NCBI RefSeq assembly: GCF_900637295.1
Contig: NZ_LR134363.1
Coordinates: forward strand, 496,001-560,000
DNA length: 64,000 nt
Direction of reading: 5' to 3'
Source of the DNA: Actinomyces slackii
GTDB taxonomy: Bacteria > Actinomycetota > Actinomycetes > Actinomycetales > Actinomycetaceae
Shown here: positions 5,407-48,712 of the stretch, piece after piece
How the letters are laid out: each line of letters begins with the position of its first letter
How positions within the stretch are numbered: position 1 is the first letter of the stretch
Made by a program: the position numbers and the translations under genes
Notes under the pieces: generated by a model
The model's input: the letters and a program-made list of their open reading frames with translations, nothing else
The model's database searches: none
What the model was told of the DNA's origin: nothing

Positions 5407-5411
5407 GACCA

Positions 5412-5430
5412 GTATGCTATACGAACGTTC
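5412..5430. promoter_or_regulatory. Putative TetR operator
   Basis: Two adjoining palindromes lie directly upstream of the TetR start: GTATGCTATAC (GTAT/ATAC arms) at 5412-5422 and GAACGTTC at 5423-5430. Back-to-back dyads immediately before an autoregulated tetR gene are typical of its operator. This is inference from position and symmetry. Confidence 0.45.
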
Positions 5431-5783: not shown

Positions 5784-6800
5784 ATGACACCCGCTACCCG
5801 AACACGCACACTCATCGCCGGCATCGCAGCGGTCCTCCTGGCGCTCATCGGCGCCGCCCCCGCCGCAGCCGAGACACCCCCAGCCGAGACACCCGCCGCC
5901 GAGGCGACTGACGCACCCACGGTCACCGTCGATACCACCGTCATCGCCGTGGGAGGCACCATCACGTTCAGCGACCAGTGGGGCACCTGCAGCGGTACCG
6001 ACAAGGTCATCATCGCCCTCGACGGAACCACCGTGGCCACCGCCCAGGGCGGAGAGTCATGGATGGAGAGCGTCAAGGCCCCTACGACTCCGGGCACCTA
6101 CACCTACGACGTCTCCTGCACCTCAACTAGCAAGACGATCACCTACGCCCCCATGTCGATCCGGGTCCTGCCGCCCCCGCCCGAGAACATCGGCGCCTCC
6201 ATCGGGGAGATCACCCGAGACGGGTGCACGGTCTCAGTGCCGGTGACCACCACCGGCGCCTACACCTTCGAGCTCCGGACCTGGGATGACAAGAGTGAGC
6301 TGCAGAGCACCATCTGGGACACCCAGGCCGATGGCACCACCGTCATCACCTGGACCATCACGGGCGCGCCCAGCACCAGTTTCGGAAACGACGACATCTA
6401 CTTCGAGGTCCTGGTCAACGGCAGCGTCAATCTCGACGGCCGTGACACGCGCGCCGACGCCACGTTCACCTACCCCCAGGAGGTCGCCGACGCCTGCTCG
6501 GCCAAGGTACCCGTCCACGCCTCCATCGAGGGCGGTGCCACCTCTCTCAAGGCCGGCCAGGACCTGACCATCTCGGGAACGGGCCTCTTGAGTGGAGAGG
6601 CCGTGGACATCACCCTGGATGACTCGGCAACCCGCATCGGCGGGCAGGAAGACATGGGGGCAAATACATTTATTGAGACCGACGACCCCTTCACACTGAG
6701 CGCCACCCTGCCCGCGGACATCTCGCCCGGGCGCCACGCCCTGGTCATCACAGGAAAGACGTCGCATCGCACGACGCGGATCCTCTTCACCGTCGGCTGA
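5784..6800 (+). CDS. Secreted protein with Ig-like domains, function unknown
   Basis: The 338-residue protein opens with a Sec signal peptide (RTRTLIAGIAAVLLALIGAAPAAAE, cleavage near residue 30). A short Pro/Ala/Glu linker and three beta-rich segments follow. The last (SLKAGQDLTISGTGLLSGEAVDITL) resembles a bacterial Ig-like fold, in which an axial GTG..SGE motif is common. There is no LPXTG motif or C-terminal membrane anchor, so it is probably released or non-covalently surface-bound. AAGGAG eight bases before the ATG supports the start. The neighbours on either side do not suggest a function. Confidence 0.65.
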   Translation: MTPATRTRTLIAGIAAVLLALIGAAPAAAETPPAETPAAEATDAPTVTVDTTVIAVGGTITFSDQWGTCSGTDKVIIALDGTTVATAQGGESWMESVKAPTTPGTYTYDVSCTSTSKTITYAPMSIRVLPPPPENIGASIGEITRDGCTVSVPVTTTGAYTFELRTWDDKSELQSTIWDTQADGTTVITWTITGAPSTSFGNDDIYFEVLVNGSVNLDGRDTRADATFTYPQEVADACSAKVPVHASIEGGATSLKAGQDLTISGTGLLSGEAVDITLDDSATRIGGQEDMGANTFIETDDPFTLSATLPADISPGRHALVITGKTSHRTTRILFTVG

Positions 6801-6949
6801 CGACGATCGGCTGACGAGCGCCTGCCCAGCCGCCCAACCGCCCAGCTGCCCTGCCAGGGCGTCCGACATACGAGGCCCCCTTGGCAGGGCGGCTGGGGGC
6901 TGTCAGGATAAATCGGGTCATGTCCGTCAGTTTCAAGGAGACCACACCT

Positions 6950-7489
6950 ATGGCCCTCTACCTCTTCGAGATCGTCCCCTCCACCCACGAGCGCTCGGCC
7001 GCCCAGGCCATCATCACCGCCGTCGTCGAGGCCGCTGCCTCCGCCTCCGCCGCGGTCCTGGAGTCGCAGGTCACCACGGGCAACGGGCGGGTCTTCACCG
7101 TCGTCGAGCACGACGGCGATCCCGCCGCCCTGGAGACCGCTGTCCGCCAGGGCCTGGAGTCCGCCGGCGCCGCCGAGATCACCGGCCCCGACGAGGTGCG
7201 CCTCGTGGGCGCCGAGATCGAGGACATCCGCGGTCTGAGCGCCTCGGCCGACTACCTGGTGGAGTGGGATATTCCCGCCGAGATCGATATGGAGACCTAC
7301 CTGACCCGCAAGAAGGCGAACTCTCCCAAGTACGCCCAGGTCCCCGAGGTCAGTTTCCTGCGCACCTACGTGCGCGAGGACACCGTCAAGTGCCTGTGCT
7401 TCTACGACGCCCCCGACGAGGAGACCGTGGTGCGCGCCCGCGAGGTGGTCTCCACCCCGATCGACCGCCTGCACAAGCTGGCCGACTGA
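6950..7489 (+). CDS. DUF4242 family protein (SCO4226-like, nickel-binding)
   Basis: From the ATG at 6950 (AAGGAG nine bases upstream) the protein is 179 residues. The C-terminal half (SFLRTYVREDTVKCLCFYDAP, then EEVVRAREVV-like helices and PIDRLHKL) matches DUF4242 domains. The N-terminal half (MALYLFEIV onward) looks like a diverged second copy of the same ferredoxin-like fold. The best-studied relative, SCO4226 of Streptomyces coelicolor, binds nickel, and whether this protein does is unknown. It appears monocistronic and ends at a strong hairpin. A longer reading frame from 6881 exists but lacks a ribosome site. Confidence 0.7.
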   Translation: MALYLFEIVPSTHERSAAQAIITAVVEAAASASAAVLESQVTTGNGRVFTVVEHDGDPAALETAVRQGLESAGAAEITGPDEVRLVGAEIEDIRGLSASADYLVEWDIPAEIDMETYLTRKKANSPKYAQVPEVSFLRTYVREDTVKCLCFYDAPDEETVVRAREVVSTPIDRLHKLAD

Positions 7490-7527
7490 GAATCGGCTGG
7501 CCCTGGGCCGCCGGCGCGTTCGCCACG

Positions 7528-7563
7528 GGTCGCTCGGCCACCTGGCCACCTGGCCGAGCGACC
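7528..7563 (+). terminator. Hairpin terminator after the DUF4242 gene
   Basis: The arms GGTCGCTCGGCCA and TGGCCGAGCGACC pair perfectly (13 bp) around a 10-base loop, 38 bases past the stop. There is no T-run, which is usual in high-GC actinobacteria. Confidence 0.65.
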
Positions 7564-7642
7564 TGACGCACTGAGTGGTTGAACTGGCTGGGTTAGCCGA
7601 TCTGGCCGCGTCGACGCGGCACCGGGCCACCGCACCCACCCG

Positions 7643-7680
7643 ACTGGGCCCACCCGCGCGCATGCGCTGGTGGGCCCAGT
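7643..7680. terminator. Hairpin terminator of the ABC exporter operon
   Basis: ACTGGGCCCACC pairs with GGTGGGCCCAGT around a 14-base loop. It lies 35 bases past the stop of the leftward permease gene. With the hairpin at 7528-7563 it separates two convergent units. Confidence 0.65.
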
Positions 7681-7715
7681 GCCGTTCCGGGGCTCAACAC
7701 CCTGCGCCAGGGTCC

Positions 7716-8606
7716 TCAGCGCGCCCGTCCGGTGCGGTGCGCCACGGCGGCCAGCAGTCCCCAGGCGAGTCCTCCCAGCAGGCCGGCAGCCACCAGAACC
7801 GGCGCCACGTCGCTGCCGCTCAGGCCCCCGGCATCGCTGAGGGCCGAGGACCCCAGGGACAGGCAGCGCGACACCAGGCCCTGGGGGATGGCGTAGACCA
7901 GTGGGGATCCCGCGGCCAGCATCCCGAAACCCGCCACGCAGCCGCCGAAGCACAGCGCCACCGGGGCGGCGAAGGATCGCATGAGCATGCTCAGCAGGGA
8001 CTGGAGCGCAACCAGCGGCATCGCCGCGAGCATCGCCAGCGCCACGGAGACCGGGAGGCTCGCGGGCAGGATCGGCCCCAGGCCCAGAGCCATGCCCGCC
8101 ACCCAGGTCATCGCCACCAGGGCGGCCTGCATGGCCGCCGTCGGCACCAGGATGATGAGGGTCTTGGCCAGGACCACGGCCGCCGGGCTGTGCGGCGTCG
8201 CGCGCATGGCATTCCAGCTCGAGCCGCGATGCTCCACCCGCCACACGGTCGAGGCCAGGAGGGAGACCCCCATGGAGAAGAAGATCATCGAGTAGAACAG
8301 GGTCACCTGGGAGGACATCGACACCCATCCCGCTGACAGCACGCCCTGGTTGGCCGCGTAGTTGACGGTGCCGGTCACCACGGCCATAAGCGGCAGGAGG
8401 AGGACCACCACCCACACGGCCGAGCGCCGGAGCTTGACGGCCTCCGCGCCCAGCAGCAGGAGGAAGTCTGCGCGGTGCCCGGCCGGACGGTCCGGCGCCG
8501 CCGGGGGGCCGGCGGTGCCCGGCCCAGCGGTGCTCACAGCGGAGGCGCGCGCGGGCATTGGCGCGACGGGAGCGGTAAAGGTCGCAGGAGCAGTCATGGG
8601 GATCAC
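7716..8606 (-). CDS. ABC-2 permease subunit, lantibiotic/bacitracin-type exporter (distal)
   Basis: The 296-residue protein has a Pro/Ala-rich cytoplasmic N-terminus of about 45 residues followed by six hydrophobic helices. The segment VEHRGSSWNAMRATPHSPAAVVLAKTL after the second helix is characteristic of the permeases of BcrB/SpaE/MutG-like self-immunity exporters. It overlaps the preceding permease gene by four bases, and the two probably form the membrane heterodimer. The divergent histidine kinase/response regulator genes likely control it. The substrate is unknown. Confidence 0.75.
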   Translation of the reverse strand: MIPMTAPATFTAPVAPMPARASAVSTAGPGTAGPPAAPDRPAGHRADFLLLLGAEAVKLRRSAVWVVVLLLPLMAVVTGTVNYAANQGVLSAGWVSMSSQVTLFYSMIFFSMGVSLLASTVWRVEHRGSSWNAMRATPHSPAAVVLAKTLIILVPTAAMQAALVAMTWVAGMALGLGPILPASLPVSVALAMLAAMPLVALQSLLSMLMRSFAAPVALCFGGCVAGFGMLAAGSPLVYAIPQGLVSRCLSLGSSALSDAGGLSGSDVAPVLVAAGLLGGLAWGLLAAVAHRTGRAR

Positions 8607-9505
8607 CTCTCGATCCGGTCAAGTCGGCGGGTCAGGGCGGCGAAGGCAAGGCCCGCCAGGGCCAGGAAGCCCACGGCCCACCCCCAGGGCATCTCGATGT
8701 AGGTGAAGGCAGCGGTCTGACCGTCGTAGGTGACCTTCGCCGGAGTGATCACGGCGTAGTAGCCCCAGGGCACAAGGCGCGCGAGCCACCCTGGCGCCAG
8801 CAGCATGTACAGGCTGATGAAGCTGCCCAGCAGCCCCACCCCCACCACGACGATCTGGTTGTCCACCACCGCGGCGAGCCAGATGTGGAAGGAGCAGACG
8901 GCGATGTTCACGGCGATGAGCAGCAGGGTGTAGGCCGCCCACGGCGCCACGTCCATGGGCACGGACAGTCCCATGAGGCGGGCCACGGCCATCAGTCCCG
9001 CGACCTGGAGGAGGATCGCCGGGATGATCACCGCGCTGAGCGCGGCGAGCTTGACGCGGCACAGCGCCCCCGGGGTCAGTCCCAAGGTCGAGGCGAGGTT
9101 CCACCCGGATCCGGAGTGCTCGATGTCGGTCTGCCTGCTGGCCAGCACGGACATGAGGATCGGCCCGGTCAGCGCGCTGACGAGGCCCAGGTTGAGCAGA
9201 AGGCTCGCCCAGGGCATCGCCGCCGGATCGCTGAGGTCGGCCCTCCCGGATTCTGAGAACAGGCTCATGCTGCCCATCGCGATGGTGGCGGCCACGAAGG
9301 CGAGAGTCACCGGCAGGGTTCGCAGCCGCCTCATCTTGGCGATCTCAATGCCGACGGCGCAGGCCGGGCTCATCGACCCCCGACGGCGGGCGCCGAGCCC
9401 AGCATGAGCCGGCGCGGCGGGGCGCTGGGAGGCCGCCGGTGCCGCAGGGGCTGCGAAGTCTGCCGCGGGGGCAGGAGCCGCCGGGAATGCGCTCGATGCC
9501 ATCAC
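8603..9505 (-). CDS. ABC-2 permease subunit, lantibiotic/bacitracin-type exporter (proximal)
   Basis: This 300-residue membrane protein is a paralogue of the downstream gene. It has an Ala/Pro-rich N-terminus of about 50 residues and six predicted helices. The corresponding loop (DIEHSGSGWNLASTLGLTPGALCRVKL) matches the paralogue's and marks the bacitracin/lantibiotic immunity permease group. Four-base overlaps with the ATPase gene upstream and the permease downstream indicate one coupled operon. Confidence 0.75.
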   Translation of the reverse strand: MMASSAFPAAPAPAADFAAPAAPAASQRPAAPAHAGLGARRRGSMSPACAVGIEIAKMRRLRTLPVTLAFVAATIAMGSMSLFSESGRADLSDPAAMPWASLLLNLGLVSALTGPILMSVLASRQTDIEHSGSGWNLASTLGLTPGALCRVKLAALSAVIIPAILLQVAGLMAVARLMGLSVPMDVAPWAAYTLLLIAVNIAVCSFHIWLAAVVDNQIVVVGVGLLGSFISLYMLLAPGWLARLVPWGYYAVITPAKVTYDGQTAAFTYIEMPWGWAVGFLALAGLAFAALTRRLDRIER

Positions 9506-10650
9506 AGCGCACCTCCCCGGCCGGTGAGGTCCATGAAGACATCCTCCAGGCTCTGGTTCTCCCGGCGCACCTCGTGCAGGGGCACCCCGGCGGCGGTCAG
9601 ACGGCGGATGAGCTCGGCGACGGCGTCGGCGCTCAGGCCCGGGATGCGCACGCCCTCGCGGGTGAGCACCGGGGCTCCGGGCTGCGCTGCCGGCCCAGCC
9701 GGCCCCTCAGGCCCCGCTGGCCCCGCCGGCGCAGCCGGCCCGGCCAGAGCGGCGTCGGGAATCAGCCCCGCCAGGATCCGAGGGTCCGCGACGGCGCGCG
9801 CCGCCGGGGTGACCACCAGGACGTCGGGCACCGAGCGCTCCATGAGCTGGGCGCGCGTGCCCTGGAAGACCATCCGCCCCGCGGAGAGGATGCCCAGGAT
9901 GGAGGCCATGCGGTCGATCTCGTCGAGGAGGTGGCTGGAGACCATGACCGTGACCCCCTCCCCGGCCAGATCCACCAGAAGGCGGCGCACCTCCTCGATG
10001 CCGGCCGGGTCCAGTCCGTTGGTGGGCTCGTCCAGGATGAGGAGCTCGGGCTCGCGCGCCAGGGCGATGGCCACCCCGAGGCGCTGCTTCATGCCCAGGG
10101 AGTATGTGCGCACGAGCCGGTCCTTGTGCTCGCTCAGGCGCACCAGGGCCAGGGCCCGGTCCACCTGGGCCTGACTCAGGCCCAGCATGCGGGCCACGAT
10201 CCTCATGTTCTCAGCCCCGGTGAGGTGGCCGTATCCGGGCGGGCTCTCGATGAGGGATCCGGTGCGGGCCATGATCCCGGCGCGGGTGGCCGCGGTGAAG
10301 GGCTGGCCGAAGACGCTCATCTCCCCGCGCGAGGGCGCCAGGAGGCCGAGCAGCATCTTCATGGTGGTGGACTTGCCCGAACCATTGGGGCCCAGGAAGC
10401 CGTAGACCGCGCCTCGCGGCACGACCAGGTCGAGATCGGCCACCACAGTGCGCCTCCCGAAGCTCTTGGTCAGGCCCCGGGTGGCCAGGACGACGTCGTC
10501 GGCGGGCGGGATGCCGGCCGCGCGGGAGCGGGCGGGCGCTGGCACCGGCCCGGCGGACCTGAGCCCAGTGAGAGGCGCTGGTGATGACGGTGGTGCGGAG
10601 GGTGCGAACGGCGTCGGCCCGCTGGTGAGGAGTGCGTGTGAGGTGCTCAT
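9502..10650 (-). CDS. ABC transporter ATP-binding protein (BcrA/SpaF type)
   Basis: The 382-residue protein has an unusual low-complexity Pro/Ser/Ala N-terminal extension of about 50 residues before the domain begins at VLATRGLTKSFG. The nucleotide-binding domain has Walker A (GPNGSGKST), the signature region (YSLGMKQRLGVA), Walker B (LLILDEPTNGLDP) and the H-loop (VSSHLLDEIDRM). A second low-complexity Gly/Pro/Ala stretch precedes the C-terminus (SLEDVFMDLTGRGGAL), which is typical of BcrA-like ATPases. GGGAG lies nine bases before the ATG at 10650. It is the first gene of the exporter operon and is divergent from the two-component pair. Confidence 0.85.
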   Translation of the reverse strand: MSTSHALLTSGPTPFAPSAPPSSPAPLTGLRSAGPVPAPARSRAAGIPPADDVVLATRGLTKSFGRRTVVADLDLVVPRGAVYGFLGPNGSGKSTTMKMLLGLLAPSRGEMSVFGQPFTAATRAGIMARTGSLIESPPGYGHLTGAENMRIVARMLGLSQAQVDRALALVRLSEHKDRLVRTYSLGMKQRLGVAIALAREPELLILDEPTNGLDPAGIEEVRRLLVDLAGEGVTVMVSSHLLDEIDRMASILGILSAGRMVFQGTRAQLMERSVPDVLVVTPAARAVADPRILAGLIPDAALAGPAAPAGPAGPEGPAGPAAQPGAPVLTREGVRIPGLSADAVAELIRRLTAAGVPLHEVRRENQSLEDVFMDLTGRGGAL

Positions 10651-10733
10651 GGCTCAAGGCTCCCGGCCGGTGCGCACCAGCACATCAGCCCGCGGTCTGC
10701 TCATGAGGCGCGGCTGGAGGCCGCCTCCTCACA

Positions 10734-10803
10734 CCGGGGTATGAGGGGCGCGAGAGCCTGTCGGAAGAGCGCTGGGCGGGGAGGCTGTGCCCTCATACCC
10801 CGG
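10734..10803. promoter_or_regulatory. Paired 14-bp inverted repeat, putative response-regulator operator
   Basis: CCGGGGTATGAGGG (10734-10747) is perfectly complementary to CCCTCATACCCCGG (10790-10803), with 42 bases between. The pair sits in the 194-bp gap between the divergent exporter operon and the histidine kinase gene. Each arm could be one binding site of a NarL-type dimer, or the two could be bridged. Confidence 0.55.
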
Positions 10804-10844
10804 CATGACGCCCGATCGGGCCCCGGCGGCCTACCGTTGCGGCC

Positions 10845-12338
10845 ATGGCAGGCACCCAGCAGATCGACGGTCAGGTCGGGCCCGCACCGATGCGGGCCCG
10901 GCGCCGCCCCGGTGCGCTCGACCTCATCGCCGCGGTCCTCGTGGTCTACCTCTCCGCGCTCAACTCCCCGGATCCGGTGGCATCCCTGGATCCGCAGGCG
11001 GCCCGGGCCATCTACATCGGCCTGCTGGTGGTGTGCGCGCTGGCGATAGCGGGGCGGCGGGTGGCACCGCTGGCGGCGGTCATCGCGATCGGGCTGGCGA
11101 TGATGGGCCACCTGGCGGCGTTCAGCCAGTTGTCCCTCCTGGCGGTGGCCGCCACGCTGGTCGCGGTCGAGACGACGCAGTCGCGCCTCGATCCGCCATG
11201 GCGGTGGGTGATGCTGGGGGCCGCGGCGCTGGGGACGGCGGCGGCCTCGGTGCGGATGGTCGAGCTGGTGGGGCCCGAGGTGCCGCTTCGCTCGTTCATC
11301 CTGGTGTCCGTCTCCTGGCTGGTGATGGCCGTGGCAGCCTTCACCGGCGCGTGGCGCAGGTACGGGCGCAACCGGGTGGAGCAGGCCCTGGAGCGGGCGG
11401 CAGTGCTGGAGGCGCAGCAGGCCACCGAGCGTCGCCTGGCCGTGGTTGAGGAGCGCCAGCGCATCGCCCGCGACGTTCACGACCTCCTGGGGCACAGTCT
11501 GAGCGTGATCGGCATGCAGGCCGAGGGGGCGCGCGCCGTCCTGGCCGTCGATGCTCAGGCGGCCGACGACGCCCTGGCCGTCATCGGTGACACGGCCCGG
11601 CGCTCCGTGGACGAGGTGCGCGTCCTCGTCGATGTGCTGCGGGCCGACGCCCCCGGCCAGGGGGCGCCCACCACGGCCGGTGGCCTAGTACGCGGTGCCG
11701 GGCTTGCTGCCGATGCGCGGCCGGTGGCCGATCAGCCCGCTGCCGATGTCGCGGCGGTGCCAGGCCACCCTCTGGCAGCGCCGCGGCACGGGTCTGAGGG
11801 GGATTCTCCGGGGAATGCCGCATCGCCGCACGCGGCTCCCGAGGCCGGTCAGGACTCCGTGGAGGCACTCGTGCGCCGCGCCCGGCGGGCCGGCCAGCGG
11901 GTGGACCTGCACCTGGCCATCGCCGAGGACATTCCTGACCTGGTTGACATCGTTCTTCTGCGCGCGGTCCAGGAGGCGCTGACCAATGCGCTGCGCCATG
12001 CCCCTGGCGCGGCCGTGCGCGTCGAGCTCACCGCCCGGGACGGCCTGGCTGAGCTGTCCGTGGTCAACGGGGCACCGGCCTCGCGCACCCCATCCGCCAC
12101 GGCGAGTCCCGCGCGCCGGGGATTCGGCCTGGTGGCCATGCGCGAGCGGGTTGAGGCCGCCGGCGGGGGCCTGGTCGCGGGCCCCGAGCCCGACGGCGGC
12201 TGGCTCATGCGCGCCACCCTGCCCCTGGCCCCCGCCCCCGGCGGGCCCACCGCAGCGCACTCGCCTGGCGCCGGCTGCCCGCCCGGCGGCCCCGCCGCGA
12301 GCCTGGCCGCCCCGACCACCGCGCACGCCGGAGCCTGA
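10845..12338 (+). CDS. Sensor histidine kinase (HisKA_3/DesK type)
   Basis: The 497-residue protein has five or six membrane helices in the first 170 residues, a coiled linker (about 175-205) and a HisKA_3 box (ERQRIARDVHDLLGHSLSV) with the phosphoacceptor His212. A low-complexity segment of about 60 residues (285-345) separates this from the ATPase domain, which has an N box (VQEALTNALRHAPG) and a G box (RGFGLVAMRERVEAAGGGL). A Pro/Ala-rich tail follows. The large linker insert is unusual. The response regulator starts two bases after its stop, so the pair is coupled. The neighbouring exporter is the likely target, as in bacitracin/lantibiotic detox modules. Confidence 0.85.
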   Translation: MAGTQQIDGQVGPAPMRARRRPGALDLIAAVLVVYLSALNSPDPVASLDPQAARAIYIGLLVVCALAIAGRRVAPLAAVIAIGLAMMGHLAAFSQLSLLAVAATLVAVETTQSRLDPPWRWVMLGAAALGTAAASVRMVELVGPEVPLRSFILVSVSWLVMAVAAFTGAWRRYGRNRVEQALERAAVLEAQQATERRLAVVEERQRIARDVHDLLGHSLSVIGMQAEGARAVLAVDAQAADDALAVIGDTARRSVDEVRVLVDVLRADAPGQGAPTTAGGLVRGAGLAADARPVADQPAADVAAVPGHPLAAPRHGSEGDSPGNAASPHAAPEAGQDSVEALVRRARRAGQRVDLHLAIAEDIPDLVDIVLLRAVQEALTNALRHAPGAAVRVELTARDGLAELSVVNGAPASRTPSATASPARRGFGLVAMRERVEAAGGGLVAGPEPDGGWLMRATLPLAPAPGGPTAAHSPGAGCPPGGPAASLAAPTTAHAGA

Positions 12339-12339
12339 C

Positions 12340-13116
12340 ATGATCCGCCTGGGACTGACGGATGACGAGCCTCTTTTCGCCGCGGGCCTGGCAATGCTGC
12401 TGGGCGCGCAACCGGATATGGAGACGGTCTGGCAGTCCGTTGACGGCCACGACGCCCTGCGCCGCCTCAGCGCCGACCCCGTGGACATCCTGCTCCTGGA
12501 CATCCAGATGCCGGGCCTCGACGGCCTGTCCACCACTCGCGAGATCGTGGCCCGCGGCGATGACTGCCGGGTGGTCATCCTCACCACCTTCGACACCGAC
12601 GGCTATGTCCTGGGCGCCATCGAGGCCGGGGCGGCGGGCTTCCTGCTGAAGAACACCCCTCCCCAGGAGCTCATCGAGGCGGTGCGCACCGTTCACGCGG
12701 GGGACTCGGTGATCTCACCAGGGCCCACGCGCCGCCTGCTGACGGCGGTGCGCTCCGGAGGGCTCGGCAGGCCCGACGCGCCCGGTGGGCCCGATGAGCC
12801 CAGCGGACCCGCAGTATCGGCGACTGTCCCGCCAGCGGCATCGGCGGGAGGCGCCGTCGAGCCCACTCCCGAGCAGGCGGCTGCCCGGCGGGCGCTGGAG
12901 CCCCTGACCGAGCGCGAGCGCGAGATCCTGGTGCTCATCGCCCTGGGACTGACCAATCAGGAGATCTGCGACCGCGAGTGGCTGTCCATGGCCACGGTCA
13001 AGACGCATGTCAGCCACCTGCTGTCCAAGACCGGCAGCCGTGACCGGGTCCAGCTGGTCCTCCTGGCCCTGCGGGCCGGCGCCGTCGACCTCACCGAGGT
13101 CCTCACCGGATCGTGA
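12340..13116 (+). CDS. NarL/FixJ family response regulator
   Basis: From the ATG at 12340 the protein is 258 residues. The receiver domain has acidic residues D8/D9, phosphoacceptor D54 (LLLDIQMPGLDG) and K104 (FLLKNTPP). The C-terminal LuxR-type helix-turn-helix reads LTEREREILVLIALGLTNQEI, then ATVKTHVSHLLSKTGSRDRVQ. The domains are joined by an uncommonly long Gly/Pro/Ala linker of about 60 residues. A longer in-frame version upstream overlaps the kinase gene and has no domain support. It is the partner of the kinase just upstream. Confidence 0.9.
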   Translation: MIRLGLTDDEPLFAAGLAMLLGAQPDMETVWQSVDGHDALRRLSADPVDILLLDIQMPGLDGLSTTREIVARGDDCRVVILTTFDTDGYVLGAIEAGAAGFLLKNTPPQELIEAVRTVHAGDSVISPGPTRRLLTAVRSGGLGRPDAPGGPDEPSGPAVSATVPPAASAGGAVEPTPEQAAARRALEPLTEREREILVLIALGLTNQEICDREWLSMATVKTHVSHLLSKTGSRDRVQLVLLALRAGAVDLTEVLTGS

Positions 13117-13221: not shown

Positions 13222-16023
13222 TCACCGGCTCGCCTCGGTGAAGACCGCGACCGTACGGGCCGGCACGCCCACCGCACCAGAGCCGGGATCGAAGACCGAC
13301 TCGCGCACGACGTCGTCGGCCCCCCGCTCTTGAATGGAAGAGAGCCGGAACTCGCGGCCCGCCAGCTCGGCAAGGGTCTGGCTCACCCACGTCCCCGAGG
13401 CGTTGATGACGACGAGCAGCCCGTCCAGGTCGGGATCGATATCCCGCCCCAGGGTGTCGTCGATGAGCATGGCGATGAAGCCGGCCGGCGCCCCCAGGCC
13501 GGCGCCCGGGAAGCGCACCTTGTCCACGATCAGACCAGCGTCCCCCAGCCACAGCAGGGGCGAGGACGCCCGCAGGCGCAGCAGATCCAGCGCCTGCGCC
13601 TTGGCCGCGGCGATGTCCTGCGGCCCGGGCCTCAGCGAGGAGTCCTCCAGGAGCGGGCCCTGCGCCCACCAGGTCCTCTCATTGCGGAAGGCCGGGGGCA
13701 GCCCGCGACCAAAGCCATTGCCCTGCCCCGTGAAGTCGATGGCATTGAAATGGTCACCCGAATCGTAGGAGTCACGGTCCAGGGACTTGCTGCGCAGCAG
13801 CTCGGCGCCCGCCGCCCAGAATGACGGGGACTGCCCCAGTGCCACCGTGGCCAGGCACACCGTGTTCATGCGCACCCGATCCGGCATCGGCAGTCCCCGC
13901 GGCAGCTTGTAGGTCAGCAGGTCGAAAAGCGTCTCGTTGTCGTGGGCGTCAACATAGTTGACGTTCTCCTGCGGGGCCGAGGCAAAGCCGGCCGCCGACC
14001 CGTTGTAGCCCATCTCGCCGCCACGGCGCATCCTCCCGTCAGCGCAGAGCAGCAGGTAGTCGCGCAGGTTGCCGACCATGCCCAGGCGCACGAGGTCGGT
14101 GCGGTGGGCCAGGTCGGCGGCCTGATCGTGGCGGGAGCGCGGGTCCAGCCCGCCCGGCTGGGTCAGCAGGCCCGTCCCGAAGCCCTGGTAGGCGCGATGA
14201 TCCTGATCGAAGGGACCGCCCCCGTGAACGGCGTCGCGCAGGCGGTCGTTGAAGGCGCCGATGCCAGTGCCGTCCAACTGGCCCTGGGTGGCCTGGATGA
14301 ACAGGGCGTTGGAGGCGACCTCCCCGAAGTTCCAGCCCTCGCCGTAGAGGTAGAGGGAGGAGCCGTCGACGCCATCGTCCTGGACGGTCAGGGCGTCCAG
14401 GGCGGCGCGCACCTTCTCCATCGTGGGGCGCGAATGGTGGCCCATGAGGTCGAAGCGGAAGCCATCGACCCGGTACTGGCGGGCCCACCACACCACCGAG
14501 TCGATCATGAGGCGCTCGCTCATCGCGTTCTCGGTGGCGATATTGGAGCAGCAGGTGGAGTTCATGACCCGGCCCACGGCGTCGAGCCGGTGGTAGTAGC
14601 CGGGCACCACCCGGTCCAGGACGCTGAGGGGATCCTGGCCGTGGGCGGCAGTGTGGTTGTAGACCTGATCGAGGACCACCTGCAGCCCGACGGCGTGCAG
14701 CGAGCCGACCATCTCGCGGAACTCGATGATGCGCCCGCCGCCGTCCTGATGGCCCTCGGTGGCGTAGGAGCCCTCGGGGGCCATCCAGTGCCAGGGGTCG
14801 TAGCCCCAGTTGTAGGCGTCCCGGTGGGCCACTTCCGCAATGGCCGCCTGCTGGTCGGCGGAGGCGGGGCCGGCCTCGGGGATGACCGCGCTGAGCTGGT
14901 CGGATCGGCGCTCGGGGATGGTGGCGATGTCGAAGGTGGGCAGGAGGTGGACGGTGCTCAGGCCCGCCTCGGCCAGCTCTGCCAAGTGGCGCATCCCGTG
15001 GGAGTCGGCCACGGTGAAGGCCCGATAGGTGCCGCGCAGCTCGGCGGGCACGGAGGAGTCCATGGCGGAGAAGTCGCGCAGATGGAGCTCGTAGATGCTG
15101 CGGGAGGCGTTGTTGGGCACGCGCGGGGAAGGCGTCGCCCATACGGAGGGGGCCAGGGCGGGGTCCCCCAGGTCAACGGCCACGGAGCGCTCGGAGTCAA
15201 CGGTCAGGGCCACCGAGTAGGGGTCGGTGACGAGGTTGGTCTCGATCCGGCCGGTGGCCGGGACATAGACCTCCACCTCCCACAGGTACTGGCAGCCCGC
15301 GGTGATATCGCCCCGCGCATTGGCCACGCACCAGCGTCCATCGGTGCTGGGGACGGCCGGGGTGCGAGTCGCCCCGCCCTCGACCAGGGGGAGGCTGCCC
15401 GTGGCCTCCCCGGTCTGCCAGGTCAGGAGGGTGACGCGGCGCGCCGTGGGGGCCCACAGGGCGAAGCGGGGGGCGCCGTCGGTGAAGGAGACGCCGAGCT
15501 CTGCGCGGGTCGAGGCGTACAGGCAGTCCAGGAGCGGGGCGAGTTGGACGCCGGTGTAGGCGTCGATGCTGCGGGTCGGGCCGTCGACGTACTGGAGGAC
15601 GGCGATCTGGCCGGTCAGGGCCTGGCGCACGACCGCCTCGTCGAGGGGGGCCGCGGGGCGCAGGGCGATGAAGCCCTCCAGGTTGGGGCGTGCGGACAGG
15701 ACGTGGTCGGGCAGGTTCCCGGTGATGCTCAGGGGAGTCAGGACGGGGGCCGGCAGGTCGTCGGCGCCGAGAAGGGCGCCGTCGATGACAGCAGCGCCCC
15801 CCTGGGAGGCGGTGACCAGGGCCAGGGTCAGCCCGCCGGCGCCCGTGGGGGCTCCGGCCTCATCGACGACGTCCTCGCGACCCATGCCAATGGGCAGCAG
15901 GGACAGGGGCCAGGCCAGAAGATCGGGCTTGATCCAGTAGGCGCGCTGCTCCCCCGAGCCTGCCACTGGCGGGTCGGCCATTGCGTTGTCGATCGTGCGG
16001 GTCATCGTGTACGTGAAGGCCAT
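13222..16023 (-). CDS. pulA: Pullulanase-type alpha-1,6-glucosidase
   Basis: I chose the ATG at 16023 ([12 protein letters not shown]) because GGGAGGGG precedes it; the protein is 933 residues. There is no signal peptide, so it should debranch glycogen or imported maltodextrin in the cytoplasm. N-terminal pullulanase modules ([29 protein letters not shown], a CBM48-like segment) precede a GH13 barrel. Barrel motifs are [12 protein letters not shown], the [17 protein letters not shown] block typical of pullulanases, [21 protein letters not shown] (nucleophile Asp), LYGEGWNFG (acid/base Glu) and [12 protein letters not shown] (third carboxylate). Length and motif order match the pullulanase-type debranching family. 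Confidence 0.92.
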
Positions 16024-16100
16024 GGCTCCCCTCCCGGCTCGACCGCGCTGCCACCTGCCATCCTCCCCGCTCCGCGCCGATGGCGCTACCCCTGGCGATC

Positions 16101-16222
16101 TGTCCGTCCTGAACAACTTTAACGCCGGACGCCAACAACCCCTTTAGGATAACCGCAGGTCAGCCCATAGTTACCTACGGCAACTCAGCGGCGGCGAGGC
16201 TAAAAGTTGTTCAGGACGGACA
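16101..16222. repeat. 122-bp inverted-ended repeat, copy 1
   Basis: The ends TGTCCGTCCTGAACAACTTT (16101-16120) and its exact complement (16203-16222) form a perfect 20-bp inverted repeat around 82 bases. Copy 2 at 19455-19576 has the same length and orientation and a nearly identical core. Similarity between the two continues about 14 bases past the right end (ACG.GGGCCCTCAG). It lies between the divergent starts of the pullulanase gene and the WXG-like island. No coding capacity is seen. Confidence 0.85.
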
Positions 16223-16321
16223 ACGTGGGCCCTCAGTGCCCTCAAGGCAGGTCGGAGCAGGTTCTGGGGGCGCTCGCGACAGCTCGCCGCCGTCGACGCC
16301 CAACGAAGAGAGAGTCCTCGC

Positions 16322-16352
16322 TTGTCATGGAGATGAGATGAGGCTAACCTAA
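16322..16352 (+). promoter_or_regulatory. Promoter with DtxR/IdeR-like iron box
   Basis: A possible -35 TTGTCA (16322-16327) is spaced 17 bases from TAACCT (16345-16350). The 19 bases at 16334-16352 (TGAGATGAGGCTAACCTAA) match the known DtxR/IdeR consensus TTAGGTTAGSCTAACCTAA at 16 positions, with a perfect right half. The box covers the -10 region, the classical place for iron-dependent repression. It lies 75 bases before the WXG-like gene. Confidence 0.6.
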
Positions 16353-16427
16353 ATCGATCGCGAAGGGGGCGAGCCCACCACCGAGCGATCAGCGCATTAA
16401 TTGAACGATAGACGAAGGAGTCTTCAA

Positions 16428-16673
16428 ATGGGAAAGAAGGCATCCATTGCCGCTGTGAAGACGCAAGTGAGCACGAGTCGCAACAGCCTCGGATTAAGTG
16501 ACGGAGCCGCAGCGAAGACAGAATCCCTGGTCAAAGACCTCTCCAGCGCCTGGAAGTCCCCCAAGGCAGAGGATTATGCCACACAGATCACTGAAGTCAT
16601 AACCAGCGCGTCAGCACTGTGGTCTTCTTTAGCTGACGAGCTCCAGGACGCCTACAACGCAGCCACCGACTAG
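16428..16673 (+). CDS. WXG100-like small helical protein
   Basis: The 81-residue protein begins MGKKASIAAVKTQ behind AAGGAG (seven bases). It is predicted to be two helices joined at SAWKSPKAEDY, with a Trp-x-Ser turn where ESX substrates have WXG, and has no signal peptide. Its size, turn and pairing with a large downstream gene fit the WXG100 superfamily of type VII (ESX) secretion substrates. The homologous module at 48387-50782 has the related turn SSWISPKAKEY. No ESX machinery is in the window. Iron-box control would parallel the iron-regulated mycobacterial ESX-3, but that is inference. Confidence 0.6.
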   Translation: MGKKASIAAVKTQVSTSRNSLGLSDGAAAKTESLVKDLSSAWKSPKAEDYATQITEVITSASALWSSLADELQDAYNAATD

Positions 16674-16731
16674 GCCACGCCATTTCATCAGACATCCAAA
16701 CGTTCTATCAAGCACGGAAAGACTAATTGAA

Positions 16732-18771
16732 ATGACCTACATTTCTCTCGACAAATCTCTATTGCAGAACCTCATCGATGCGATCAACAGCTACGCGCAG
16801 AGCCATGACTTCGAAGTGGGGGAAGTCAAGTGGATCAACTGGACGGAGGATGATCCTGCAGGAGTAGGATATCGGGTTGCCAACGGATCAACACTCGCGG
16901 GGATGTCAACCACGATGACCACGTTGAGTGGGGAGATCCAAGTCCGCCTCGATGAGGCGGTAGCGATGAATGAGTCGGGAATCACTATGAGCGACGGCAA
17001 TACGGTGAGCTATTATCTTCCCGATGGTGGCGAAGACACGGTGGAGAATGTAAGGGCCTACAACTCCAAATCGCTCGATGCAGCCAAATCAGAAGCAACG
17101 GCACTGTATCAAGCGACGAACAGCCCGAATGGCCGCTCCGAGGACGGACGCACTATCGACGAGATTTATGCGGAGATGGCTAAGCATCAAGATGTGCCAA
17201 CCTATTCGGCCGCATATATTCAGGCGCTAGACAAGGCGGCCGAGACAAGGCCCTATTCCGAGGAGGACATCAACAAGACTGGGGCAGAGCTCTTCTTGGA
17301 GCTCATGAACCGGAGTCGAGACAGTTATTCGGGCGAGGTAATGCCCCCTCACTTCAGCACACTCGGGCACATGCTGGCTGCCGCCTCCCAGGATGAGGTG
17401 GGCGGTGCCAGTCTGGCGAAGGACGTCTATCCCCAGGACGGCTCCACCATGTCACTCGCGAGCAAGATCTCCCTTAATGCCGCCCTCTCCGAGACGCCCA
17501 CCCGATTCGGAACAAGGTTCCTGGTGGACATCGCCTCCCGATCTGAGGGTCAGGACCCCAACCAAGGCGGGATGGAGGGAGAGGATGTCATTAACCTCAC
17601 ACGATACAATGCGGATGTCCTCGGCGGAGCACTCACTGCCATGGGTAACAACCCTAAGGCCGCCCTGGATTACCTTGCCTCTGCTGGCGGCACAGTGGAT
17701 GCGAACGGCACCTGGACTCCCAATGACGCCGCTCAGTCGCGCTGGGACCGTCTCAAGCATCGCGACTGGAACCAAGCCGGCCTAGATGGATTCACTGCAG
17801 CGCTTGGAGCAGCCTCCTCCTACCGCAATGTGACTGGTGATACCGGCGATGTCATCCATGCGGACGCGCGAGCGACCTGGCTGGCGGGAAATACGATCAG
17901 CCATTTCGGCGGAGGCGATGTCAAGAAAGAAGACTTCTCCGAGAAGATGAAGGAGAATCTTTCTCTGGTGATCGCCAACAGCCCAGAGGAGGTATCAGTG
18001 GCCGCCGAGGGGGCAGACCTCGAGGATACCGACGGAGCTAAGCTCCCAACCAAACCCCAGGCCATTACGAATCTCACCTACCGCGTGATCGATAACGAGA
18101 ACGCTGCAGCCACTATCGCCACAGGACTGGGCGATTATCATCACGATCATATCGACCGCGACATGCAGTCAGGAGACATGACCACCCTCAAGGGTAACTA
18201 TGAGAGCGCCGCAGCCTCTCAGGGGTATATCGAGCGACTCATCGAATCGCGGCTCACCGATAACAAGGAGGACGCCGAGAAACGCAAGACCGCTATTGAC
18301 ACGGCAGCAAGCGTGTTCACCACGGTTGCGGCCACTGGCGTCACAGTAGCAACCGCGGGCACGTCGGCGGCAGTTCTGGCTCCCTTCGCAGTGGATGTCG
18401 GGACCACAATCGCCAAGCCTGTGGTTGTCGATGCTCTCACCGAGGGCTGGGGAGAGGACAGGAACAAGGACGATAGTCCTGGAACACCTCGTGATATTCT
18501 TGAAGCACAGGGCTACACCGATGCGGCGCAGTACGGCCTCCTCTCCGATGAGAGCATCGCCCTCGCCCAGAAGCAGGGCCTGCTACTCAATGCGGACGGC
18601 AGTGTCATCGAAGTTCCCCCTGGCGGTTACAGCGATTCGTACCTTCGAAAGGTCCAGTCCTGGAAGAAGAAGGCCGGTGACCCTGCAACTCAAGAAGTTT
18701 CCGACTCCATCGATTCAGGTTTGGATGACGGCAGGGAGCAAGCGAGTAAGCTCCTCACCAATAAGAACTAG
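16732..18771 (+). CDS. Large protein of unknown function (DUF6571-like), paralogue of 48713-50782
   Basis: The 679-residue protein has lower GC and more varied codon use than its neighbours. It starts MTYISLDKSLLQNLIDAIN and shows an N-terminal helical region with NESGITMSDGNTVSYYL near residue 85, then FSTLGHMLAAAS (about 205), NPKAALDYLAS (about 310), WDRLKHRDW (about 340) and a hydrophobic Ala/Thr/Val stretch (about 525-565) resembling a membrane-interacting helix. Equivalent motifs recur in order in the second locus. The N-terminus resembles a WXG/LXG-like helical bundle, so this may be a large partner or toxin-like substrate of the small upstream protein. No enzymatic motif is recognised. 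The DUF6571 name is from memory of the Actinomyces family and needs a profile search. Confidence 0.6.
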   Translation: MTYISLDKSLLQNLIDAINSYAQSHDFEVGEVKWINWTEDDPAGVGYRVANGSTLAGMSTTMTTLSGEIQVRLDEAVAMNESGITMSDGNTVSYYLPDGGEDTVENVRAYNSKSLDAAKSEATALYQATNSPNGRSEDGRTIDEIYAEMAKHQDVPTYSAAYIQALDKAAETRPYSEEDINKTGAELFLELMNRSRDSYSGEVMPPHFSTLGHMLAAASQDEVGGASLAKDVYPQDGSTMSLASKISLNAALSETPTRFGTRFLVDIASRSEGQDPNQGGMEGEDVINLTRYNADVLGGALTAMGNNPKAALDYLASAGGTVDANGTWTPNDAAQSRWDRLKHRDWNQAGLDGFTAALGAASSYRNVTGDTGDVIHADARATWLAGNTISHFGGGDVKKEDFSEKMKENLSLVIANSPEEVSVAAEGADLEDTDGAKLPTKPQAITNLTYRVIDNENAAATIATGLGDYHHDHIDRDMQSGDMTTLKGNYESAAASQGYIERLIESRLTDNKEDAEKRKTAIDTAASVFTTVAATGVTVATAGTSAAVLAPFAVDVGTTIAKPVVVDALTEGWGEDRNKDDSPGTPRDILEAQGYTDAAQYGLLSDESIALAQKQGLLLNADGSVIEVPPGGYSDSYLRKVQSWKKKAGDPATQEVSDSIDSGLDDGREQASKLLTNKN

Positions 18772-18784
18772 TGAGCGATCAAGC

Positions 18785-19432
18785 ATGTCTATTGTGATCC
18801 GTAGAGCACTTATCAATGTCGTTCGCTGCGGCGCGCTCGCCTGGCGTCATCAGCGCGTCATGGCGATCTTCTTGGCGGCAGGCCTATCGGCCTGCAGCGG
18901 GGCCTCCAATCCAACGCCCTCAGCATCGCCGTCGCCGTTGACCGAGGAGACGCTATGCGGCGTCGTGTCCAGTCAAATACTGCGAGACGACCTGGGATTC
19001 CAGGCGGAGAGTTATTCTCATCGAGTTGATGCCCCGTCAGAGTCCAACTCAACAGGCTACTTCAAGTGCCTCATGCGTTCCGCCACCGACCTGCGCCTGA
19101 TCGGAATCAACTACGGCTCCATCAAGACTGAGGATGACAAGAGACTGGCAACCGATGGCACCGCGGTCCCCACGCCTCCAGGCAACCGAGAGGGAGTATT
19201 GCGGGTGCGGGATAACTTTGATGGAGGAAGCACGTTAATCTGGATCTACCCCGATAACCGCATGATCACGATCTGGCTCCAGTACGGCGATGGCACAGGC
19301 CCCGGAGGAGGAGCAGAGCGGGAAGACCTAACCACCCTGCTCGACAGCCTCATCGAGGCCATCCCCGCCTACGTCCAGACAATCGACCGATCCCTGCATA
19401 CCAGAGTCCCAGCACGGTCCACTGACGGGTAA
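18785..19432 (+). CDS. Lipoprotein of unknown function
   Basis: The 215-residue protein has a long charged n-region, a hydrophobic stretch (VMAIFLAAGLSAC) and a lipobox LSAC with the lipidated Cys at about residue 38. A Ser/Pro/Thr-rich linker leads to a small domain with cysteines at ETLCGVV and YFKCLM that may form a disulfide; this layout recalls DUF3558-like actinobacterial lipoproteins. It follows the large gene by 13 bases, so it is probably co-transcribed. The second locus has no counterpart. The start could be the inner Met of VMAIF. Confidence 0.6.
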   Translation: MSIVIRRALINVVRCGALAWRHQRVMAIFLAAGLSACSGASNPTPSASPSPLTEETLCGVVSSQILRDDLGFQAESYSHRVDAPSESNSTGYFKCLMRSATDLRLIGINYGSIKTEDDKRLATDGTAVPTPPGNREGVLRVRDNFDGGSTLIWIYPDNRMITIWLQYGDGTGPGGGAEREDLTTLLDSLIEAIPAYVQTIDRSLHTRVPARSTDG

Positions 19433-19454
19433 CCATCGGCTCCCACGCACAACG

Positions 19455-19576
19455 TGTCCGTCCTGAACAACTTTAACGCCGGACACCAACACCCTCGCTG
19501 GAATCACCGCAGGTCAACCCATAGTTACCTACAGAAACTCAGCGGCAGCGAGGCTCAAAGTTGTTCAGGACGGACA
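19455..19576. repeat. 122-bp inverted-ended repeat, copy 2
   Basis: It has the same perfect 20-bp ends as copy 1 (19455-19474 and 19557-19576), the same 82-base spacing and the same direction. The core shares long identical blocks such as CCCATAGTTACCTAC. It lies between the convergent lipoprotein and hemQ genes and could also act as a terminator there. Confidence 0.85.
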
Positions 19577-19618
19577 ACGCGGGCCCTCAGCGGCCTCACG
19601 CAGCGGTGGGCCGCAGCA

Positions 19619-20401
19619 TCAGGTGCGGGGCTGGCGCTCGGCCCACTGGCGGGGGGACACGCGCCGGCCCGTGTAGAAGGGCGTGTCCACGCGCACGTGC
19701 AGGCGCGCCTCGGTGTAGCGCTGGTGATGCATGACGCCCTCAAGGCGATCCAGGGTGTCGGCCTCGAAGCCCAGGATCCACTCGTAGTCGCTCAGCCCGA
19801 AGGTCGCCAGGGTCGATCCCTTGACATCGGGGAACTTCGAGAAGCCGTGGCGGCCGTGAGCGGCCATGATCCGCGAGCGCGCCTCGGGCTCAAGCAGGTA
19901 CCACTCGTAGGAGCGCACGAAGGGGTAGACCATGACCCAGTCGCGCGGCGCCACCCCGGCCAGGCAGGCCGGCACATGGTTGCGGTTGAACTCGGCGGGG
20001 GTGTGCAGGCCCATGCAGGACCACACCGGCTCGAGCTGGCGGCCCAGCGCGCTGGCGCGCAGGCGGTGGTAGGCGTCCTGGAGGACCTCGGGGTCGTCGT
20101 CGAGCCACCACACGAGCAGGTCGGCGTCGGCGCGAAGCCCGCCGATGTCGTACCAGCCGCGGGTCGTCACCCCGCTGTCCTCGATGAACTGGGCGGACTC
20201 ATCGATGAGCCGCTCCCGGGCGGGCTCGGCGGCGGGCAGGGGGGAGGCCAGGCGGAAGACCGCGTAGAGGGTGTAGTGATACTGGTCGTTGATGGCATCG
20301 AGGTCGACGTCGGTGGCGTCGCGCGGGTCGCGGTGGGGGTGGCGCTCCTCGTCCTCGAAGCGGTGGAGGGGGCCGGCGGGATGGCTCGGGGTCTCGGTCA
20401 T
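19619..20401 (-). CDS. hemQ: Coproheme decarboxylase HemQ (ChdC)
   Basis: This is the last enzyme of the coproporphyrin route: H2O2-dependent decarboxylation of two propionates of iron-coproporphyrin III to give heme b. It is a chlorite-dismutase-fold protein of 260 residues from the ATG at 20401, which has AGGAG upstream and overlaps the cpfC stop (ATGA). The motif MVYPFVRSYEWYLL contains the likely catalytic Tyr (Y159), and HGRHGFSKF holds the probable proximal heme His (H182 or H185). The C-terminal GLSDYEWILGFEADTLDRL is typical of actinobacterial HemQ. The longer start at 20461 lies inside cpfC and lacks support. Confidence 0.93.
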   Translation of the reverse strand: MTETPSHPAGPLHRFEDEERHPHRDPRDATDVDLDAINDQYHYTLYAVFRLASPLPAAEPARERLIDESAQFIEDSGVTTRGWYDIGGLRADADLLVWWLDDDPEVLQDAYHRLRASALGRQLEPVWSCMGLHTPAEFNRNHVPACLAGVAPRDWVMVYPFVRSYEWYLLEPEARSRIMAAHGRHGFSKFPDVKGSTLATFGLSDYEWILGFEADTLDRLEGVMHHQRYTEARLHVRVDTPFYTGRRVSPRQWAERQPRT

Positions 20402-21726
20402 GACTGCTCCTGGGGGTGTGGTTGCGTGCGGGTGGTGGGGCGTGCGCCGGGCAGGCAGCATGAGGGCGGGCAGACCGTGTGGAAGGGGCCGACGCCGGTA
20501 GTGGACTCCGGGCGAACGATCTCCCCCCGGGCGGTGGCCGCCCGCTCGGCCAGGATATCGACCAGGGAGGCGATGAAGGCCGGGTGAGTGCCGGCGGTGG
20601 CGGCCCGCGCATAGGGCAGGCCGAGCTCTTCAGCGGTCTGGGCCGCCTCGGTGTCCAGGTCGAAGACCACCTCCATGTGGTCGCAGATGAATCCGATGGG
20701 AGCCACGACCACACCGGGGCAGTCCTGCTCGGCCAGGGCCTCGAGGTGGTCGTTGATGTCGGGCTCCAGCCAGCGCGCCTGGGGAGGGCCCGAGCGCGAG
20801 CAGTAGACGAGGTCGTGGCCCAGCGACTCCAGTCCCAGTCGGCGGGCCACCTCGGGAACGAGCACCCGCGCCAGGGCCTCGTGCTGGGCGGCGTAGGAGA
20901 TCTCCGTGGACAGGTCGGCGCTGACCCCCGGCTCGGGCTCCCCGGCCATCCCGGGATCCGCCGCCCCTTGGCCGGCCGACCCGGCCGAGCCGGCTGAGCC
21001 CGCCTCCATGGAGACGGGGATGGAGTGGGTGACCAGCACGAGCCGGACCCCCTGGGCATCCACCCCCTGATCGGCGAGCCTGCCGTAGGCGGCGAGGATG
21101 GCCTCGACATTGGCCTGGAGCATGCCGGGGGTGTTGTAGTAGGGCCGGGCCTTGTCCACGCTGAGGACGCCCTCCAGGGGCGCCCCGCCCGCTCCGCCGA
21201 CCCTGGCGGCGGCGTCGGCCTCCTCATCGCCGGTGGCGCCATCGGTGCCCGCCTCGATGCGGGCGATGGCCCCGGCCACGTCCTCGCGGTACTGGCGGCA
21301 GCCCGAGTACGAGCCGTAGGCGGCGGTGGTCAGGGCCAGGACTCGGCGGGCGCCGGCGTCGGCCAGCTCGCGCAGGGCCTGGCTGACGAAGGGACGCCAG
21401 TTGCGGTTGCCGATGACCACGGGCAGGTGGCAGCCGCGGCGGGCCAGCTCGGCGCGCAGGGCCGCCAGCAGCTCGGCGTTGCGGGCGTTGATCGGCGAGA
21501 CCCCGCCGAAGCGCTGGTAGTGGGTGGAGACCTCCATGAGCCGGGAGTCGGGCACGCCCCGTCCGGCGGTGGCGTTGCGCATGAAGGGCAGGACGTCGTC
21601 GGGCCCCTCAGGCCCCCCGTAGGACAGGACGAGGACGGCGTCGTAGGGGGCCAGGGGCCCGGCCAGGGTCGCGGCGGCCTCAGGCAGGGCCACCACCTCC
21701 GGGGTCTCGATGGTCAGCTCACTCAT
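20398..21726 (-). CDS. cpfC: Coproporphyrin III ferrochelatase
   Basis: The 442-residue ferrochelatase fold begins AVLVLSYGGPEGPDDVLPFMRNATAGRGVP. It has the family block RFGGVSPINARNAELL, VIGNRNWRPFV and YGSYSGCRQY, and near the C-terminus IGFICDHMEVVFDLDTEA. Actinobacterial members insert Fe2+ into coproporphyrin III. About 70 low-complexity or inserted residues occur near residues 150-260. The gene overlaps hemA upstream by eight bases and hemQ downstream by four, so hemA-cpfC-hemQ is one operon. The N-terminal 20 residues before APYDAVL are poorly conserved, and a later start is possible. Confidence 0.92.
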   Translation of the reverse strand: MSELTIETPEVVALPEAAATLAGPLAPYDAVLVLSYGGPEGPDDVLPFMRNATAGRGVPDSRLMEVSTHYQRFGGVSPINARNAELLAALRAELARRGCHLPVVIGNRNWRPFVSQALRELADAGARRVLALTTAAYGSYSGCRQYREDVAGAIARIEAGTDGATGDEEADAAARVGGAGGAPLEGVLSVDKARPYYNTPGMLQANVEAILAAYGRLADQGVDAQGVRLVLVTHSIPVSMEAGSAGSAGSAGQGAADPGMAGEPEPGVSADLSTEISYAAQHEALARVLVPEVARRLGLESLGHDLVYCSRSGPPQARWLEPDINDHLEALAEQDCPGVVVAPIGFICDHMEVVFDLDTEAAQTAEELGLPYARAATAGTHPAFIASLVDILAERAATARGEIVRPESTTGVGPFHTVCPPSCCLPGARPTTRTQPHPQEQS

Positions 21727-48707: not shown

Positions 48708-48712
48708 CGACC

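Follow-up and report, generated by a model that had tools for sequence, protein, structure and literature searches.

The window analysed here, a stretch of 64,000 nucleotides that spans positions 496001 to 560000 of the single-contig 3.22-Mb genome of Actinomyces slackii, carries a 3.2-kb block (16223-19454) that is flanked by a hemQ gene and a pullulanase gene and bracketed by two same-direction copies of a 122-bp element with inverted ends. The left copy, E1, occupies 16101-16222 and the right copy, E2, 19455-19576, both on the forward strand. The similarity between them continues for another 22 nt on the right side, to 16244 and 19598 respectively, to give a direct repeat of 144 nt that is 89% identical and whose members lie 3354 nt apart. 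Each repeat is in turn an imperfect inverted repeat with 20-nt ends, the left end of E1 (16101-16120, forward) pairing with its right end (16203-16222, reverse). When up to three mismatches were allowed, the 19-nt end was found six times in the window and not once in 100 shuffles, and a third copy of the element, solitary and divergent, lies on the reverse strand at 40245-40366. The GC content of the DNA between the two repeats is 0.578, compared with 0.70-0.73 (up to 74% GC) immediately outside. The pair of same-direction repeats, the low-GC block and a lipoprotein gene inside it had already been reported in a preliminary description of this DNA, and all three stand.

Three genes lie on the forward strand of the block. 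The first (16428-16673) encodes an 81-aa protein that had been called WXG100-like. The reading frame is indeed present, but W-K-S-P-K-A replaces W-x-G, and no WXG100 match was obtained in Pfam or NCBIfam up to an E-value of 1; the best Pfam match, to PPE, is sub-threshold (E 0.18, 12.3 bits, cut-off 26). The second gene (16732-18771) encodes a 679-aa protein, formerly listed as unknown, which matches the Pfam family DUF6571 (PF20211) with 289.9 bits against a curated cut-off of 27. The third (18785-19432) encodes a predicted lipoprotein of about 215 aa with no Pfam family, whose start was chosen within a longer open frame and, like its lipobox LSAC, judged by eye. A scan of 15900-19800 against Rfam gave no match to an RNA element.

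How widespread is the bracketing element? It occurs at 33 places in this genome when the two strands are collapsed and two fragments, at 289720 and 756462, are left out. Thirty of these places measure 121-122 nt, two 133 nt and one 120 nt, and the matches at 483395 and 601084 are weak. An alignment of 31 copies, 16 from this genome and 15 from the tetR-pfs site of relatives (two lineages), is 122 columns long, four of its rows having a gap of one base, and describes a non-coding sequence of near-constant length with conserved ends (TGTCC...GGACA) and a variable middle, that is, a short multi-copy element with terminal inverted repeats, as is typical of miniature inverted-repeat transposable elements (MITEs). 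The two ends are paired in 92.7% of the alignment cells, compared with 84.0% in shuffled alignments, none of which (0/500) scored as high, and their covariation score also exceeds all shuffles. Two further measures out of the five applied, the number of pairs changed on both sides and the number of further pair types, are not above the shuffles. When the two lineages are compared, columns 10, 12 and 15 of the ends differ on both sides and the ends still match; these changes represent few independent events.

Outside A. slackii the element was found in part of the genus. A first sequence model, built from 18 copies, has matches (E≤1e-3) in 13 of 49 Actinomyces genomes, our own included. A second model, used at E≤1e-5 with strict filters, identified the element in eight of 161 sampled genomes of the family, all of them Actinomyces, and in none of the 35 other genera sampled, so that a single genus out of 36 is represented. 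These counts are lower bounds, since the models missed copies later found in three relatives (G010, G007 and G003; relatives are represented by one genome per species and designated by G numbers). Among open PubMed Central (PMC) papers we found no report on miniature elements in Actinomyces; in the one paper containing both words, the passage concerned is about Porphyromonas.

Some copies in this genome form closely similar pairs. When the 528 pairs of copies were compared, each copy cut at its true ends, the six most alike were all same-direction neighbours. Five of them lie 0.5-3.4 kb apart and show identities of 0.992, 0.967, 0.951, 0.943 and 0.893, the last being the present pair; the sixth (1215557/1196887) is 0.887 identical, or 118/122 without an 11-nt insertion, and its same-direction members are 18.7 kb apart. 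The next-ranked pair reaches 0.828 and the median over all pairs is 0.623. Within 5 kb, five of five pairs are same-direction, and the probability of at least five at random placement is 0.0018. For the 1215557/1196887 pair the argument is its identity, because closeness at 18.7 kb is not unusual.

Most of the other cargo bracketed in this way is of the toxin-antitoxin or CRISPR kind. Whereas the window pair (16101/19455) encloses the WXG-like, DUF6571 and lipoprotein trio, a PIN protein and a FitA-like antitoxin (32.3 bits, cut-off 27) lie between the copies at 88220 and 89140, a PIN protein and a Phd/YefM-like antitoxin (24.2 bits, below the 29.8 cut-off) between 2599321 and 2600186, an SLFN_AlbA_2/HATPase_c_4 protein, at 4641-6038 of its locus stretch, between 621478 and 623108, and a lone VbhA-type antitoxin open reading frame (ORF) between 1129963 and 1130491. 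The pair 1196887/1215557 brackets, between 1196887 and 1215678, an 18.5-kb type III CRISPR-Cas island, probably of subtype III-D to judge from its Cas7_IIId and Csx19 matches. This island encodes Cas10 (309.8 bits), Cas7/Csm3 proteins, Csx19, a CARF/HEPN protein and a CorA-like protein, and also contains genes for Fic and an rve transposase, together with two arrays built of a 37-nt repeat, 16 units in total. Some of the solitary copies have comparable company: the one at 374790 adjoins RloB and AbiLi-like ATPase genes, which lie at 309-2222 of their locus stretch, that at 2771464 a FitA-like antitoxin and a HEC-01A-like ATPase, and that at 3167805 RelB/PemK. This survey is not an enrichment test, because only selected proteins were scanned among the neighbours viewed at 22 places.

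Alleles with and without cargo were found in related genomes. At the tetR-pfs site, 16 loci were examined (pfs is present in 49 genomes; tetR was unmatched in six of the 16 stretches, G006, G007, G023, G042, G047 and G048, and partial in G011). Six loci are filled (G003, G006, G010, G011, G050 and G061), with the order element, block encoding one protein of about 318 aa, element, and the two copies 1337-1514 nt apart. Three loci (G001, G045 and G057) carry one complete element, one (G023) half an element, and six (G000, which is the present genome, G007, G042, G044, G047 and G048) lack it. The one element of the three single-copy genomes is preceded by the sequence that lies left of the left copy in the filled genomes and followed by the sequence to the right of their right copy, and the two kinds of allele differ by the cargo plus one repeat. 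The lone copy in G057 has an identity of 0.99 with E1 of G050 and of 0.80 with its E2, and it runs on into the flank of E2. As for the cassette protein at this site, AbiEi/DUF559-like was considered as a label and set aside: Pfam returned only a weak REase_MTES_1575 match in all six members (best E 0.003, below the cut-off), and a comparison with PDB gave nothing better than E 0.46.

A second site of this kind was found among 55 further loci that were fetched and clustered by their flanks. In G048, the only genome where it is filled, the copies are 9,775 nt apart, form an exact repeat of 141 nt and enclose a block with a GC content of 0.53; G006 and G057 carry one copy between the same outer flanks, and G061 and G023 have the right flank alone in common. 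The exact repeat of G048 includes 24 nt to the right of the element; G006 and G057 have them too at their single-copy sites, each with one mismatch, which suggests that a resident element was duplicated at insertion. The 9.7-kb island of G048 (3128-12785 of its locus stretch) contains transposase-like remnants and a serine-hydrolase-like ORF, both labelled by eye.

Could the two copies of a pair have inserted independently on either side of native genes, which some relatives later deleted, with no capture of foreign DNA? Solo copies are common, a deletion between direct repeats accounts for the single-copy alleles, and several of the bracketed blocks are only slightly GC-poor. However, independent insertions would not be expected to leave close pairs that are same-direction in five of five cases and that make up, together with the 18.7-kb pair, the six most alike of 528, nor a second site filled in G048 only with single copies in G006 and G057. 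We regard this explanation as rather unlikely.

Taken with the pairs in this genome, the filled and single-copy alleles lead us to propose, with a probability of about 0.7, that the block at 16223-19454 is an accessory gene cassette lodged at a dispersed 122-bp element with inverted ends, known so far in part of Actinomyces. Accessory genes seem to enter and leave the genome at these repeats. Recombination between direct copies would remove the cargo, and the reverse reaction with an incoming copy would add it; the present cassette may have been gained, and may be lost again, in this manner, much as solo long terminal repeats (LTRs) arise. As with solo LTRs, the filled allele reads repeat-body-repeat and the empty one has a single repeat with the same outer flanks; unlike them, the body here encodes no replication machinery and the repeat is also widely dispersed alone. 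Either RecA or a dedicated recombinase could provide the recombining activity. The members of a pair may be alike through duplication of a resident copy at insertion, through gene conversion, or through both, and copies within a pair can apparently be homogenised, E1 and E2 of the tetR-pfs site being 0.97 identical in G010 and 0.79 in G050. The practical value of these repeats is that the sites can be counted and exist, in part of the genus, as filled and single-copy alleles, so that gain and loss of accessory modules of the toxin-antitoxin, CRISPR-Cas or type VII-linked kind in oral Actinomyces could be traced by PCR or in strain genomes.

The preliminary description had presented the segment as a unit that could excise or be acquired at its repeats and had expected relatives with one copy at an empty site. 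The general idea is borne out by the two other sites, with their matching outer flanks, and by the further same-direction pairs of this genome; for the segment itself no such allele was seen, hemQ and pullulanase being not adjacent in the relatives. None of 34 HemQ loci has a pullulanase match within the flank covered, mostly 8 kb and shorter where a contig ended; 29 HemQ loci of relatives lack a pullulanase, and hemQ is missing from 29 pullulanase loci taken with flanks of 1.5 kb. In the genus search, contigs that carry both genes have them separated by at least about 42 kb. Since the two genes do not occur together in relatives, the position of the block beside heme genes is, as far as seen, particular to this genome, and its gain there is argued by analogy because its own site has no empty allele among the relatives examined. 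The stretch at 13222-20461 of the window is the only place among the relatives examined where pullulanase and hemQ are neighbours, and for this reason the genome may also have been rearranged at the island.

A different way to bring unrelated genes between two copies would be a composite mini-transposon, in which two MITE-like copies move the intervening DNA with a transposase acting in trans, as Tn3-family TIME-COMP elements do. The Tn3-derived inverted-repeat miniature elements (TIMEs), as described in PMC4133298, are a precedent: they are likewise small, non-coding and inverted-ended, and unrelated genes are found between two of them, whether these point the same way or opposite ways. The present element is short, non-coding, multi-copy and inverted-ended, with unrelated cargo between two copies. 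In addition, solo elements come and go as units of about 149-162 nt: six sites were compared for presence and absence, and two of the three that were aligned have clean junctions, removing about 149 and 162 nt, while the third has none. According to the same source, TIMEs are 262 bp long, have Tn3-type ends of about 38-40 nt and duplicate 5 bp of their target. The present element has 122 bp and ends in TGTCC...GGACA; Tn3-type ends and a 5-bp duplication were not found, ends and outer flanks being judged by eye, and single-copy alleles retain both outer flanks.

Inspection of the five close pairs by eye showed no exact outer duplication of 5 nt, the AlbA_2 pair coming nearest with 4/5, and the two clean presence/absence sites have no clear target duplication either. 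The flanks of 69 solo copies have no long word in common; a small excess within 8 nt (2.77 compared with 2.51, reached by one of 300 shuffles) is possibly due to orthologous copies. Among 29 matches to the element ends in this genome (up to three mismatches), none was paired by eye at the distance of an insertion sequence, so no longer element with these ends was recognised, though remoter partners are possible. Finally, a transposing unit would be gained or lost whole, whereas the alleles differ by the cargo and one copy. A composite mini-transposon thus appears unlikely.

The attC sites of integrons offer another comparison. These sites carry the core words RYYYAAC and GTTRRRY at their ends. 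The integron-like version of events would make the element an att-type site, with each cassette bringing one copy and a recombinase joining it to the resident copy near the right end. The attC sites and the present elements are comparable in length, and both are imperfect palindromes whose ends are conserved and whose middle varies, placed in direct orientation around small accessory and toxin-antitoxin cassettes; moreover, the G057 single copy, nearly identical to E1 of G050 and continuing into the E2 flank, is what a right-end crossover would give. On the other hand, the core words are absent from the element ends (judged by eye on the 31-copy alignment), there are no arrays, no recombinase was found (integron integrase was not searched for), and both copies are alike in most pairs, which is unexpected for a copy borne by the cassette. 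We consider it improbable.

Our cassette reading can be taken one step further, to a clade of Actinomyces with a dedicated cassette-capture system that lacks a known counterpart. In such a system, 122-nt resident docking elements with co-varying ends would take in cassettes of the toxin-antitoxin, type VII and defence kinds, the last including an entire type III CRISPR-Cas island; the element and up to about 27 adjacent nucleotides would be duplicated to yield direct copies of about 122-150 nt, and exit of the cargo would restore one element. Pair members have up to 27 nt of extra sequence in common on one side. We put this forward tentatively, as a possibility with the odds against it; if a dedicated recombinase does act here, the element would represent another kind of cassette system beside integrons.

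What, then, is the cargo in the window? DUF6571 is a repeated family in this genome, with eight loci (12 matches, merged), and it was detected in 10 of 24 congeners and in 0/14 genomes from elsewhere in the order. The 679-aa protein is 38-42% identical to the longest matches in congeners, and the nearest protein found anywhere is 49% identical. Of the seven other loci, whose genes were called by a simple procedure, four carry before the DUF6571 gene a short ORF in which a Trp (W-x-S/A) is invariant, five a lipoprotein-like ORF behind it, and three both; the four paralogous short ORFs have no WXG100 match either. One of the loci is directly behind an EccC-like ORF. Because sister loci repeat the Trp-containing and lipoprotein-like ORFs, in one case behind an EccC-like ORF, the trio is probably linked to type VII secretion. 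By this account the cargo would consist of a WXG-like partner, a membrane lipoprotein and a DUF6571 protein handled by a type VII (ESX) apparatus whose genes lie elsewhere.

The likeness to WXG100/LXG type VII substrates and their partners lies in the small WXG-like ORF, the large protein, the lipoprotein and the paralogue beside an EccC-like gene; the differences are that the motif is W-x-S and not W-x-G, that Pfam gives no WXG100 match and that DUF6571 has no known activity. Judged by its gene company, the trio more probably serves competition or antagonism than iron uptake, and would thus be exchangeable competition cargo. DUF6571 was not found on plasmids or phages in the collections searched, and no mention of it was found among open PMC papers. 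The EccC-like ORF lies in the region at 1449000-1460000; behind it come a WXG-like ORF, a fragment resembling DUF6571, a lipoprotein-like ORF and ORFs of transposase type (by eye), and the region is perhaps the type VII locus of this genome, partly disrupted.

Several observations weigh against the interpretation of the block as a captured cassette with type VII cargo. No empty allele of this very block was found among the relatives examined, in which hemQ and pullulanase were not seen as neighbours, and no recombinase is tied to the element. The element was sought in phage, plasmid and viral-contig collections (in the last by exact pattern) and found in none of them. The repeat extends unevenly outside the 122 nt, by 0-27 nt on the left and 0-23 nt on the right, so that no fixed crossover point can be assigned. 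Gene conversion alone could make the members of a pair highly identical, as the divergent E1-E2 values of G010 and G050 illustrate. A strongly lowered GC content is confined to the present block and the G048 island, the other bracketed blocks being slightly low (0.648, 0.665, 0.685 and 0.665, and 0.681 for the CRISPR-Cas island), and the neighbours of most solitary copies viewed look by eye like housekeeping genes. As to the cargo, the EccC-like match scores 339 bits, below the family cut-off of 509, with a model that also matches in nine of 14 control genomes, and the role of the trio is read from gene company.

The preliminary description had favoured a surface or secreted system for iron or heme under DtxR/IdeR control, expressed in iron starvation from a promoter whose -10 overlaps a DtxR-like box. 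The box itself is present upstream of the first gene (16334-16352, forward; 16/19, with all three mismatches in the left half and a perfect right half), and hemQ and hemH adjoin the block. However, it is the sole match with up to three mismatches in 3.2 Mb, a diverged consensus being possible and the DtxR gene not having been searched for; with a single match in the genome there is no sign that the DtxR consensus is in use here. A sigma-70 type scan gave no promoter on the forward strand, which leaves the overlapping -10 and the proposed iron response without support. Furthermore, the neighbourhood is not conserved, and the DUF6571 family recurs at seven unrelated loci, once by an EccC-like gene. 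No orthologue was close enough for footprinting of the box (best 49%), and among the open PMC papers listed on iron regulation in Actinomyces, six of ten, none concerned an Actinomyces box. The function of the box is therefore not supported, and we hold an iron or heme system to be very improbable.

Two further occurrences of DUF6571 may be mentioned. A second, divergent paralogue of about 692 aa is encoded in the window itself (48704-50782, forward strand) and belongs to the eight loci of this genome, and a relative, G014, has DUF6571 genes, some full and some partial, clustered at 72-93 kb of its contig 10, where they mostly match residues 302-515.

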